In this document: piece after piece, positions 33,174 through 54,604 of the stretch
Layout: each line of letters begins with the position of its first letter
How positions within the stretch are numbered: position 1 is the first letter of the stretch
DNA from: Terriglobus sp. TAA 43
GTDB lineage: Bacteria; Acidobacteriota; Terriglobia; Terriglobales; Acidobacteriaceae
Reading direction: 5' to 3'
NCBI RefSeq assembly: GCF_000800015.1
Contig: NZ_JUGR01000001.1
Span: 744,001 to 808,000, forward strand
DNA length: 64,000 bases
Notes under the pieces: model-generated
The model's database searches: none
What the model was told of the DNA's origin: nothing
What the model saw: the letters and a program-made list of their open reading frames with translations, nothing else
Program-made: the position numbers and the translations under genes

Positions 33174-34112
33174 TTAACGTTTCGCGGCATTCATGCTCCC
33201 GCCAGAAAGATGGAAGATGAAATCCATCACATCTTCTGTCTGGTGCAAGCCTCCAGCCAGCGCCGAAGGTTCCAACCACATTCGAACCCAGATCATGTTG
33301 CGCACGCGCGCCCACCGACTCTCCACCGGCGACTGGCGCTGAACCGTCCTGGTGAGCATCTGCACCAGGTCCACCTCATCTTCGCAATAGAACTCCTCCG
33401 CCGGAACGGAGGCCTGCTTCCTGATACTCTCCACCGCGGCAACAAAGTCGCTAACCGCAGCAATGCCAGCATCCACAGGACGATCGTGGATCCTGCGTAT
33501 GGCGAACACAGCCTGCGCGTCAGGTGCGTCTGCAAATGCAACGCTGATCGTGCCATCCGACTGCTGACGCAGAGGCAACATCTCCACCCCACGAAGCACA
33601 GCATACGGAGCAACGCACGCCATGCCATCGGGAATGCTTCCCTTAACATCCCACGCAGTGCACCCCCACTGCGCTGCAAGCCCCTGGACCAGGCGTTGTT
33701 CTGAGAGGCCGCAATGCTGCACGAGAACTGTACCGATACGTTCGCCGGTGTATTCTGCACGGTCGCGTGCAAACCGCAGCTGTTCTTGGGTAATAGCACT
33801 CTGCGATAACAACAACAGCCCCAAAGGAACGCGATGATTATGTTCAAGCCGCAAAGAATGGTTCGGCAAACCACGACGCACAAAGGATGCCACGCGCGCT
33901 TTCAGGCACTGCTCGCTGCAGCACCAACGCCCTTCCACGACCGGTCGAGTACGGCTTCTGAGTCCGAAACGAACCGGCAACGGAAGGCGCGAACCACAGA
34001 GACATGAACCCGCAGTCAAGTCACGGACTGCAAGTTCGGAGTCCCGCCTCTCTTCAGACGGCCTGTAGACAGAAGAAACGGTCGTTCCCAAGCGATGCAT
34101 TAGTGTAGACAT
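33174..34112 (-). CDS. MshEN-domain protein with N-terminal cysteine cluster, in flagellar cluster
   Basis: 312 residues, not a standard flagellar protein. A cysteine cluster at residues 37, 39, 64, 65 and 69 (C-L-C-G ... W-C-C-S-E-Q-C) resembles a zinc ribbon. Residues about 94-148 carry two tandem MshEN-type 24-residue motifs: P-L-G-L-L-L-L...A-I-T-x3-L, then R125-I-G-T-V-L-V...G-L-S-x3-L-x3-L-A-x-Q148, with the expected 29-residue period. MshEN domains (N-terminal part of T2SS/T4P ATPases) bind c-di-GMP. The following segment (about 160-208) continues the GspE N-domain pattern, but there is no ATPase. A GGAGAG site precedes the ATG; the start overlaps fliN by 13 bp. Likely a flagellar regulator sensing c-di-GMP; this is inference. 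Confidence 0.7.
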   Translation of the reverse strand: MSTLMHRLGTTVSSVYRPSEERRDSELAVRDLTAGSCLCGSRLPLPVRFGLRSRTRPVVEGRWCCSEQCLKARVASFVRRGLPNHSLRLEHNHRVPLGLLLLSQSAITQEQLRFARDRAEYTGERIGTVLVQHCGLSEQRLVQGLAAQWGCTAWDVKGSIPDGMACVAPYAVLRGVEMLPLRQQSDGTISVAFADAPDAQAVFAIRRIHDRPVDAGIAAVSDFVAAVESIRKQASVPAEEFYCEDEVDLVQMLTRTVQRQSPVESRWARVRNMIWVRMWLEPSALAGGLHQTEDVMDFIFHLSGGSMNAAKR

Positions 34113-34444
34113 CTAACACTCTCCAATCGCAGGCGAGGCACCGCTACTTCTGTCACTTGCAAGGCAAAATTGCCGCCCACTACCACAACTTCGCCACGTG
34201 CAACGATTCTGTCGCCGACCAGAAGATCAACCGGATCAGACACCAGCCGATCCAGCTCCAGCACGTCGCCGGCGTTCAATTCCAGAACTTCGGAAAGCAA
34301 CATCTCGCGACTACCGAACTGAATACGTGCCTCCATCTCAATGTCCAGAAAGGCATCGCCATCGCTTGTCAACAGCGATTCCACGGTAGGTTCTTTAAGC
34401 TCTCGCTCCGTTGCGGCATTGCTACCGCCATACATGTCGGTCAT
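34100..34444 (-). CDS. fliN: Flagellar motor switch protein FliN
   Basis: 114 residues: a short acidic linker and one SpoA domain with I-Q-F-G-S-R-E-M-L-L-S-E-V-L-E-L-N-A-G-D-V-L-E-L-D-R, P-V-D-L-L-V-G-D-R-I-V-A-R-G-E-V-V-V-V-G-G-N-F-A. C-ring base subunit that binds FliM and FliH. Coupled to fliM by a 4-bp overlap. A second short SpoA protein is encoded at 41770-42072. Confidence 0.95.
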   Translation of the reverse strand: MTDMYGGSNAATERELKEPTVESLLTSDGDAFLDIEMEARIQFGSREMLLSEVLELNAGDVLELDRLVSDPVDLLVGDRIVARGEVVVVGGNFALQVTEVAVPRLRLESVRCLH

Positions 34445-35355
34445 TCCCTTCCTCCCTCCGCGCTGTGTGTTTCCACCAGGTGCAGCAACTGGGCGCCGCG
34501 ATGTTCGCCATACCGCACAGGACGACCACGAAAGATAGTTGCGTTACCTACCCGTAATTCCGCTGCCATTCCATTCTGCAAAGGCAGTGGCAGCGTGATT
34601 CCTGGCCTTAGCGCCCGAAGATCCTGGGCGTAAAGCCGCATCGGAGGCAGATGCAATGCCATCCGCAGCTTCGCATTGCCAAGACGCTGCTCCATGTTGG
34701 CTCGCTCTTCCGGGGTCCGCAGGCGCTGTCGATCCTGCCGATGGGACATAGCTTTCATCGTGGAAGTGACTGCAGCCGAAGGAAGACAAAACAACAGATC
34801 GCCCGTAACTTCTGCAAGCGTGATGCTGAATCGCACAAACAGTACTTTTTCCTGCAATAGCATCAACCGCTGTCCGCGGCTCTCGCGTTCGCGTGGTTCT
34901 GCAAGAAACTCCACACCCATCGCTCCCCATGCGCCAGTCCATTCCCGCAACACAATATCCAGAACCGAACCAAGCACCGCTTCTTCGATCTCAGTAAGGT
35001 CGCGGTCAATGCGAACCGTCTTACCACTGCCTCCCAAAAGAAGATCGATGATGGCAGGCGCAAGTTGAATATCCAGCGAGAGCGCTGCACGCACACGCAG
35101 AGGCTCCATGTGAAGTGGAAGAACAAAACATCCAGTCGACGTCTGCTCCATGAACTGACTAAAGATCATTTGCGACGCTGGCTGAGGCGTGATGCTAATG
35201 TTCGTTCGTAGCCATGCTCCGAGCGTATGTGTCAGGTTACGAGCAAACTGTTCGTCCAACGTGCGCAGTGTGCGCAGTTGATCATTGGCGACTAACCCGG
35301 CACGACTGAAATTGAACGCTGTAGCGTCGGCCGCCGATACAGACTCAGCGCCCAT
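34441..35355 (-). CDS. fliM: Flagellar motor switch protein FliM without CheY-binding motif
   Basis: 304 residues from the ATG at 35355, which has GGGGACAGG upstream; an in-frame start at 35403 lies deeper inside fliA. Middle domain with the FliG-binding loop L-L-L-G-G-S-G-K (GGSG at about 108-111) and R-I-D-R-D-L-T-E-I-E; C-terminal SpoA domain with L-R-V-G-N-A-T-I-F-R-G-R-P. The usual N-terminal L-S-Q-x-E-I-D-A-L-L segment that binds CheY-P is missing from either possible start. C-ring component. Overlaps fliA by 11 bp and fliN by 4 bp. Confidence 0.93.
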   Translation of the reverse strand: MGAESVSAADATAFNFSRAGLVANDQLRTLRTLDEQFARNLTHTLGAWLRTNISITPQPASQMIFSQFMEQTSTGCFVLPLHMEPLRVRAALSLDIQLAPAIIDLLLGGSGKTVRIDRDLTEIEEAVLGSVLDIVLREWTGAWGAMGVEFLAEPRERESRGQRLMLLQEKVLFVRFSITLAEVTGDLLFCLPSAAVTSTMKAMSHRQDRQRLRTPEERANMEQRLGNAKLRMALHLPPMRLYAQDLRALRPGITLPLPLQNGMAAELRVGNATIFRGRPVRYGEHRGAQLLHLVETHSAEGGRE

Positions 35356-53690: not shown

Positions 53691-54430
53691 GCAACCTCCA
53701 GCGCTGCTCGATAACCCGTGGTGGCAGACATCGCACCAAATCGCGGCGTACCAATATTATGTTTCGCGGCAATGCCATATCCCTCGCCACGCATTGTCTG
53801 CACCAAGCCTGATGCTCCCACTGCGCCTAGCTTGCGACGGAGATAGTTCACATACACATCCACCACGTTGGTTCCTGCATCTGGCGACATCTGCCACACG
53901 TTCTCCAGCAATTCACGACGTGACACCGCCCGTCCCTTCTGCAGCAACAGGTACTCCAGCAACAGGAATTCCTTCGAGGTAAATTCCAAAACTTCGTCCT
54001 GATACGAAACAGTACGTTGAATGCGATCCATCCGCACCCCTGCACATTGCAGAATGCCCGCCGCAGATCCCATCCGCCGCCGACCAATTGCCTTGCAACG
54101 TGCAAGCAGTTCATGCATTGAGAACGGTTTCAACAGATAGTCGTCCGCTCCCAACTCCAAGCATTCAATCTTGTTAGATAACTGCGACCGGCCCGTCAGC
54201 ACCAGGATCGACATTGACGCAACCCGGTCTTGCAGTGCGCGCAGCACATCCATTCCATCCATCTGCGGAAGTCCCAGATCCAGTACCAGCAGATCGGGCA
54301 CGTCCTCCTGAATACCTTCCACCGTACTTGCGCCATCTGCAACGGCGCGAACGGTGTGTCCTTCCAGTTCGAGCGCCTTCTTCAAAAACAAAGAAAGTGC
54401 CGCATCATCTTCTGCCACCATCACTCTCAT
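53687..54430 (-). CDS. OmpR/PhoB-family response regulator
   Basis: 247 residues from the ATG at 54430, with AGGAGG about 7 nt upstream; the frame is open further up without domain content. Receiver domain with acidic pair D8-D9, phosphoacceptor Asp51 in L-V-L-D-L-G-L-P, Thr79 and Lys101 (L-L-K-P-F). Winged-helix DNA-binding domain at about 130-220 with F-T-S-K-E-F-L-L-L-E-Y-L and R-R-K-L. A 25-residue C-terminal tail is extra. No cognate sensor kinase is adjacent; the next gene is the lone HisKA-like protein. Likely top of the flagellar regulatory cassette. Confidence 0.9.
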   Translation of the reverse strand: MRVMVAEDDAALSLFLKKALELEGHTVRAVADGASTVEGIQEDVPDLLVLDLGLPQMDGMDVLRALQDRVASMSILVLTGRSQLSNKIECLELGADDYLLKPFSMHELLARCKAIGRRRMGSAAGILQCAGVRMDRIQRTVSYQDEVLEFTSKEFLLLEYLLLQKGRAVSRRELLENVWQMSPDAGTNVVDVYVNYLRRKLGAVGASGLVQTMRGEGYGIAAKHNIGTPRFGAMSATTGYRAALEVA

Positions 54431-54604
54431 CTCTGTTCCTCCTGCGTTCCGTTTGTCCATGTGCGGGCAGGTGCGCTTTCCGATCCGGCATCTGTCTCCA
54501 CTCCAAGATGACGCGAACATAAGAGCAAAACAATAATTCGCTTGGCACTGCGTCGGCGAGTCGTACCACATCGGGAACGACCGCGCTACCCCATTGGCTT
54601 TCTT

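Follow-up and report, generated by a model that had tools for sequence, protein, structure and literature searches.

Between fliN and flgF in the flagellar cluster of Terriglobus sp. TAA 43 lies a gene, here called X, that is under selection and encodes a protein with the fold of the MshEN c-di-GMP-binding module; the binding motif of that module is conserved throughout the X family. On balance, though only by a narrow judgement, we favour the reading that X is a flagellar accessory protein, a c-di-GMP-responsive regulator at the switch complex, and that the copy in the window (the whole 64,000-nucleotide stretch analysed here) has a rebuilt first half-site. The genes concerned are the following.

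33174..34112, minus strand: X, the flagellar MshEN protein gene, 312 aa (open reading frame, NCBIfam NF053729, AF2 fold match, synteny)
34100..34444, minus strand: fliN, upstream of X and overlapping it (Pfam PF01052 FliMN_C, 81.7 bits)
34441..35355, minus strand: fliM (Pfam PF02154 FliM, 100.5 bits), without an N-terminal EIDALF-type CheY-binding segment
32366..33139, minus strand: flgF, downstream of X (best NCBIfam family FlgF, below the equivalog cut-off)

The first-pass annotation of this DNA had described a cysteine-cluster plus MshEN protein inside a flagellar cluster, coupled to fliN and followed by flgF, and the open reading frame, the profile, the fold and the profile-checked neighbours all agree with it. 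X is read on the minus strand from an ATG at 34112 to a stop codon at 33174-33176 (open reading frame listing), overlaps the 3' end of fliN by 13 bases and is separated from flgF by a gap of 34 bases. Profile matches place fliM, a FliA-type sigma factor gene, flhA and flhB upstream. The downstream neighbour has FlgF as its best NCBIfam match (164 bits against an equivalog cut-off of 178.5), and FlgG, the FliA-type sigma factor and FlhA are best NCBIfam matches that all lie above their cut-offs. A scan for promoters and terminators found 0 and 3, respectively, against 1.6 and 3.4 in shuffled sequences. The window FliN is short compared with that of four relatives (L040:5057-5851, L071:4856-5767, L086:5171-5905 and L098:5036-5860), whose longer FliN carries an extra N-terminal stretch of about 150-190 residues; the two of these that were scanned gave no Pfam match for it.

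From its N-terminus to its C-terminus, X is made up of the following parts.

33906..34004, minus strand: N-terminal Cys cluster, C37-x-C39 ... C65-x3-C69, a possible zinc finger (conserved Cys columns)
33756..33827, minus strand: MshEN half-motif 1, residues 96-119, altered at positions 1 (P), 10 (S), 21 (R) and 24 (A)
33669..33740, minus strand: MshEN half-motif 2, residues 125-148, with R125, G127, L145 and Q148 kept
33411..33665, minus strand: MshEN_C subdomain, residues 150-234 (PF05157 match over residues 169-232; VIA Z 12-13 over residues 92-234)
33201..33410, minus strand: C-terminal alpha/beta domain, residues 235-304 (confident AF2 models), possibly a PilB/GspE N2 remnant

Tandem MshEN motifs with a 29-residue period had been proposed earlier, together with a profile search against the MshEN family as a way to refute them. 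NCBIfam NF053729 (c-di-GMP_motif) matches residues 96-148 of X over profile positions 1-53 of 53, with 39.2 bits against a cut-off of 38 (E 4.5e-10), and the two half-motifs, residues 96-119 and then 125-148, do follow one another with that period. The same profile matches all 27 members of the first X alignment, the window copy included, with a best E of 8.3e-15. PF05157 scores 21.3 bits against residues 169-232 in hmmscan (cut-off 23.1) and 23.4 bits in the genome search, and matches 17 of the 27 alignment members at E <= 1. A profile built from the 27 X sequences retrieves the solved N-domains of PilF, PilB and MshE (E 1.2e-31 to 2e-11).

The AF2 model of X, made with 81 sequences, has a mean pLDDT of 84.8 and a pTM of 0.79, most blocks of the MshEN part standing at 93-98. 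By AF2, Foldseek and VIA, X has the four-helix MshEN_N plus alpha/beta MshEN_C fold. Foldseek aligns the model with MshE bound to c-di-GMP (5htl) at E 8.5e-9 and probability 1.0, and VIA-align gives Z 12.3 for X against MshE (rmsd 2.7 over 135 residues) and Z 13.1 against the Q218E mutant of PilF-GSPIIB (rmsd 2.7, 135 residues). The match of the predicted X fold to MshE and PilF-GSPIIB is well beyond chance. The further claim that this is an MshEN protein without an ATPase domain also holds: no ATPase-domain profile of Pfam is present in the 312 residues, and the NCBIfam PilB match is restricted to profile positions 3-152 of 564. Pfam likewise gives no PilZ match in X at E <= 10.

In front of the module, the cysteine pattern first given as CxC...CC..C was right about the cluster (C37-x-C39 ... 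C64-C65-x3-C69), but the spacing of its 'CC..C' part was off by one residue. Columns 39, 65 and 69 are Cys in all 81 sequences of the family alignment, and the first Cys (column 34) is present in 79 of them, the window copy lacking it and having C37 instead. Pairs of the CxxxxC...CSxxC type are also present in distant X copies. Going by the Cys spacing, the Cys4 cluster may be a small finger, probably for zinc.

The half-motif of MshE is RLGxx..G..L...L..Q, in which, according to the passages of PMC5013675 that treat the binding site, the hydrophobic residues, the Gly backbone and the terminal Gln touch the ligand, and single changes of Arg9, Asp12 or Gln32 shift affinity by about fivefold at most. 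For PilF of Thermus, the sections of PMC11731258 on ligand binding give GSPII-B an affinity of 6 nM for c-di-GMP with Lys and Leu at position 1, and widen the start of the consensus to (R/K/L)LG. They describe GSPII-C as having three motifs, with P335 at position 1 of the second motif as the sole departure from the consensus, and a KD of 324-460 nM. In the same sections, the L166G change of GSPII-B, which breaks the first turn of helix 1, improved binding to 3 nM, Q190E (the motif 1 Gln) brought the affinity down to the MshE level of about 500 nM, and Q190E combined with Q218E abolished binding (PMC11731258).

In the family alignment of 81 sequences, window copy included, position 1 of motif 1 is Pro throughout, a residue for which P335 of GSPII-C provides a binding precedent. 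Positions 2 (Leu), 3 (Gly) and 17 (Leu) never vary either. Two further positions have a single exception each among the 81 sequences, position 21 being L/I/M/V and position 24 Gln in the other 80. Motif 2 has R/K at position 1, Gly at position 3 and Gln at position 24 in all 81. Outside the family the c-di-GMP residues come close to the canonical set: Gln stands at position 24 of both motifs in 16 of 16 distant X copies, and of the 15 copies in which motif 1 position 1 is readable, 14 have R/K/L there and L160 has Thr. Because these positions are conserved in both motifs, within the family and in the distant copies, the c-di-GMP site residues are, as far as sequence can tell, a held feature of the X family. 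The Pro at position 1 of motif 1 may pre-break helix 1 at the point where the ligand needs it unwound.

Residues held as a ligand site would hold them, namely the position 24 Gln (80/81) and the Leu and Gly positions of the rest of the family, and the (R/K/L)LG...Q motifs of the distant copies (14/15 and 16/16), weigh against a different reading, in which the MshEN fold is a protein-protein adaptor that tunes or stabilises the switch without ligand, ancestral c-di-GMP binding being irrelevant at least in the window lineage. We consider this adaptor role possible but unlikely, and what speaks for it comes largely from the window copy. At the key positions 1, 2, 3, 10, 17, 21 and 24 of its motif 1 the residues are P, L, G, S, L, R and A, only positions 2, 3 and 17 being kept; the changed residues are P96, S105 (Gly10), R116 (Leu21) and A119 (Gln24). 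The observation that motif 1 lacks its leading Arg was therefore correct (P96), but that Arg is not all that is missing, since S105, R116 and A119 are changed as well. The key positions of motif 2 are R125, I126, G127, C134, L141, L145 and Q148, with the Gly at position 11 (G135) and not at position 10.

No other sequence of the 81 has the Arg (position 21) or the Ala (position 24) that motif 1 of the window copy carries. S105, R116 and A119 are shared by its sister L004, whose X is 82% identical to it. Seven other genus members (L005, L008, L010, L012, L016, L200 and L201) keep the motif 1 Gln, and L202, a more distant X copy of a genus member, has lost it too. Between the window and L004, dN/dS (Nei-Gojobori) is 0.094 for X, 0.069 for fliN and 0.075 for fliM. 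Within residues 93-150 just 1 of 58 residues differs, although dS for X is about 1.2, segment values by this method being rough, and the MshEN bundle is the most constrained part of the window X in this comparison. In the MshEN tree, the terminal branch of the window copy measures 1.75, against a median of 0.17. Because this long branch goes together with the single difference in 58 and a low dN/dS, half-site 1 of the window lineage reads as a pocket that was changed and then fixed, not one in decay. X as a decayed PilB fragment was also considered and is rejected, the gene being intact, under purifying selection and syntenic.

For the adaptor, then, there are the residues P, S, R and A at positions 1, 10, 21 and 24, and a long branch that nevertheless ends in a bundle nearly frozen relative to L004. 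There is also the related N-domain of Xanthomonas citri PilB, which, going by the entry titles of 7lkm-7lko, has been solved in complex with a PilZ protein. Binding of c-di-GMP by the window X is doubtful, since XpsE and PilF GSPII-A, which have several key positions changed, do not bind. PMC5013675 names eight changes for the non-binding XpsE, and L29R, which puts Arg in place of Leu at position 21, is one of them. In GSPII-A, also non-binding, the motif 1 Gln is replaced and motif 2 is degenerate, and restoring the motif alone did not regain binding, as stated in the portion of PMC12002112 that concerns this domain. The changed residues should nonetheless be judged with caution and are not decisive against binding, given how little the single changes of Arg9 or Gln32 cost MshE (about fivefold at most). 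On the reading that we favour, that of a c-di-GMP-responsive regulator, half-site 1 of the window lineage would have been rebuilt (S105, R116 and A119 atop the family P96) and then held fixed. The window copy would probably bind c-di-GMP weakly or not at all, or read something else, and would still act at the switch.

The place of X was followed through the Acidobacteriaceae. fliN lies directly upstream of X in all 29 of the best other loci (L004-L032) and in 79 of 80 named loci of the family, the contig of the other, L089, starting too close to tell. The 80 are the best 80 of 115 from the alignment query, and the 29-locus and 80-locus sets overlap in genomes. A single-sequence scan of genome contigs with X found no relatives, and another search finds them in 188 of 250 genomes of the family, a number that includes the MshEN domains of full ATPases. 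Export genes (flhA/flhB/fliR) are in the same cluster as X in the 80-locus survey. Over the 250 genomes, 108 of 118 FlhA hits have an X match within 8 kb on the same contig among the matches listed, a count from which ATPase-length frames (570 or more residues) and weak short-frame rows of G113 and G218 were left out. Among the matches listed, 22 of 130 kept X rows have no FlhA within 8 kb. Ten of those 22 were examined (11 stretches): several have fliN, fliM or sigma genes next to them or belong to disrupted clusters, and L194, L195 and L199 have no flagellar neighbour of X within the stretch examined. At L189 (G072) the cluster looks broken, with an flhA fragment, a split flhB match and no fliM hit, and X is open and accompanied by cheY and cheX.

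Downstream order, taken by best match per locus, is more varied. X-cheY-cheX-flgF is found in 40 of the 80 loci, in 39 of them with fliN in view and in one cut at the fliN side, where the contig starts just before X. Nine loci have fliN-X-flgF without che genes, as in the window, 25 have neither che genes nor flgF in the X flank, and the remaining 6 are cut by contig ends or have another order. Counting one locus with a contig end after cheX, cheY and then cheX follow X in 41 of the 80, and cheY without cheX follows it in 3 more; in two loci that were checked, Pfam identifies these genes as Response_reg and CheX. Such neighbours would suit an X that belongs to the chemotaxis arm, modulating CheY-P or CheX and not the rotor itself. 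We hold this to be quite improbable, as the nine loci without che genes have X between fliN and flgF all the same, and members of the window's genus keep X although their FliM has no CheY-binding EIDALF segment. Elsewhere in the window, a CheY-like receiver match lies at 54095-54433 on the minus strand, sharing 25% identity with the CheY encoded in the L040 operon.

FliN docks FliH-FliI. X could on that account be placed in flagellar export or assembly, as a cut-down secretion-ATPase N-terminus beside FliN that gates cargo delivery on c-di-GMP. Its MshEN part has relatives in ATPases of the PilB/GspE type, as its C-terminal domain possibly does too, it lies between switch and rod genes, and the export genes named above share its cluster. 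We nevertheless judge an export role improbable: cheY and cheX following X in 41 of 80 loci point to switching, in a neighbour survey that left out export chaperone and ATPase genes. With fliN as its constant neighbour and cheY and cheX as frequent ones, docking of X at the switch is the most likely reading. Operon neighbourhood is no proof of contact between X and FliN, as export and assembly genes share the cluster.

Beyond the family, a phylum-wide search covered 396 genomes, and 20 regions were taken around hits that were nearly all about 300 residues long. Eighteen of these regions are flagellar. In 15 the order fliN-X-flgF is kept, in some of them with other genes interspersed; L150 and L164 are cut upstream and L160 has fliN-X and then che genes. 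The other two, L157 and L163, lie in non-flagellar surroundings, and the motif counts exclude them. X follows fliN in eight families besides Acidobacteriaceae, the later finds L216 and L221 included. At L147, L151 and L152 two genes lie between fliN and X, which we take to encode an HDOD-like protein and a small membrane protein. In L095, L052, L053 (Terriglobus albidus type) and L038, fliM has gone from the operon and the sigma gene runs straight into fliN. G148, G128 and G242 have a divergent fliM at a different place in the genome, or on a different contig, and keep X next to fliN.

Three flagellated genomes of an estimated 98-99% completeness (G180, G064 and G231) have fliN and then flgF with no X between. 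Twenty further flagellated regions were chosen for having no listed flagellar X: in six, no X could be recognised in the gap of 448-839 bases that separates fliN from flgF, though the widest gap could hide a strongly diverged gene, two have X, and 12 are cut or missing a marker. Conservation of the gene beside fliN across Acidobacteriota, which had been suggested as a check, is thus found in 29/29 and 79/80 loci (one untestable) and in eight further families, with some flagellated genomes doing without it. Since fliN-flgF occurs without X in some flagellated genomes, X fits an accessory regulator, not a structural part.

The FliM of the window bears on what such a regulator might contribute. 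The EIDALF-type N-terminal segment of FliM is its CheY-binding motif, and FliM lacks it in all eight genus members read (G000, G031, G166, G240, G180, G148, G128 and G616); the NCBIfam FliM profile matches the window FliM only from position 31. Some form of EIDALF is kept in 3 of 3 members of genera g34/g9 that have an operon fliM, and in G242. G064, from another genus, has FliM without it, and many relatives in other genera keep some form. A strict EIDALF pattern matched 47 of 72 loci and missed several visible forms, and FliM was read directly. Because the FliM of the window's genus has no CheY-binding segment, there is a hint that a CheY-independent input to the switch would weigh more in that genus.

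Known control of the flagellar motor by c-di-GMP relies for the most part on PilZ proteins, YcgR among them. The genome from which the window comes has 16 GGDEF domains, so c-di-GMP signalling is present, and two PilZ hits, in frames of 1521 and 123 residues, both outside the window; PilZNR, an N-terminal domain that belongs to one type of YcgR/MotI brake, has no hit in it. In the flagellar cluster of the window, no c-di-GMP-related module besides X turned up in a search that did not extend to EAL and HD-GYP domains. Of 44 flagellated genomes examined, 4 have PilZNR, and each of these has X as well; none of the 14 flagellated genomes without a found X has it, absence of X being established for nine of the 14 and not for G458, G416, G274, G338 and G418; the proteobacterial YcgR N-domain, PF07317, lay outside this search. 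The idea of X as a simple replacement for a YcgR-type brake is not borne out by this distribution. A further-reaching proposal, which we think unlikely, is that a PilB/GspE-related MshEN sensor on the C-ring is a motor input of the Acidobacteriota's own and a main control input in the window's genus, whose FliM is devoid of the CheY-binding segment in the eight members read, the rebuilt and fixed pocket of the window copy being constitutive or serving another ligand.

In the MshEN tree, one branch with support of 100/99 has 19 ATPases of the PilB/GspE type on one side and 33 X sequences on the other, 18 of them distant and 15 drawn from the 81 of the family. A single origin of X appears likely rather than shown, because long branches meet on the X side. 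The C-termini of the distant copies align with PilB N2 in the expected register (hhalign, E 4.5e-5, probability 69%), against E 0.17-0.61 for nine controls. Those of the Acidobacteriaceae give no hhalign signal against PilB N2, and the predicted structure of the window C-terminus has no clear match (Foldseek best E 0.09, VIA best Z 5.1). We offer it as a suggestion that X is a secretion-ATPase N-terminus stripped of its ATPase domain, with a remnant of PilB/GspE N2 as its C-terminal domain.

Taken as a regulator at the switch, X would work through an architecture in which a Cys4 finger is followed by the MshEN module and a small alpha/beta domain, with no ATPase domain. It would be made together with FliN and dock on the switch complex (C-ring). 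Uptake of c-di-GMP by the MshEN bundle would then reorient the two MshEN subdomains and alter motor switching or speed, X thereby doing the job of YcgR with an unrelated domain. Since a c-di-GMP-sensing fold sits between fliN and flgF, X is probably the route by which the 'settle down' signal acts on the motor.

In the literature on MshEN/c-di-GMP/flagella and on Acidobacteria flagella, judged by title and abstract opening, no paper was found that describes X. MshEN has been associated with CheX, CheA and other domains, and Acidobacteria are absent from the main text of that account (PMC5013675). X is new in architecture and place, the MshEN fold itself being known. A phylum of soil bacteria appears to use, inside its switch operon, a non-PilZ c-di-GMP fold common to the pilus and secretion world, and X becomes a direct candidate for how Acidobacteriota stop swimming. 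X is also probably an instance in which a regulatory module of secretion ATPases was taken over by a different machine, and the window lineage, with half of the binding site altered, amounts to a natural experiment.

Among known systems, NfrB and other non-ATPase MshEN proteins share with X the occurrence of MshEN outside an ATPase, and the NfrB profile matches all 27 X members, far below its whole-protein cut-off; unlike X, they have a glycosyltransferase partner and are not flagellar. YcgR, MotI and FlgZ resemble X by proposed role only, as c-di-GMP inputs to the flagellar motor, and differ from it in having the PilZ fold, to which X shows no sequence match. XpsE and PilF GSPII-A are like the window X in that several key positions are changed, a position 24 Gln among them. 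They differ from it as secretion and pilus ATPases, and motif 2 is the more altered in GSPII-A whereas motif 1 is in the window copy. The N-terminal domain of MshE (Vibrio cholerae, PDB 5HTL) has, like X, a two-subdomain fold with tandem 24-residue half-motifs at a 29-residue period, and X resembles it in a largely intact motif 2. Unlike MshE, X has no ATPase domain, a Cys4 finger in front and an extra C-terminal domain, it belongs to a flagellar and not a pilus operon, and it has Pro at position 1 of motif 1 throughout its family, with three further changes in the window copy. PilF GSPII-B of Thermus thermophilus is the best structural match to X (Z 13.1, Q218E mutant). GSPII-B and GSPII-C belong to a T4P ATPase, unlike X, and GSPII-C has three motifs; in the binding data of PMC11731258 the two indicate that the leading Arg is dispensable and that Pro at position 1 of one motif is compatible with binding.
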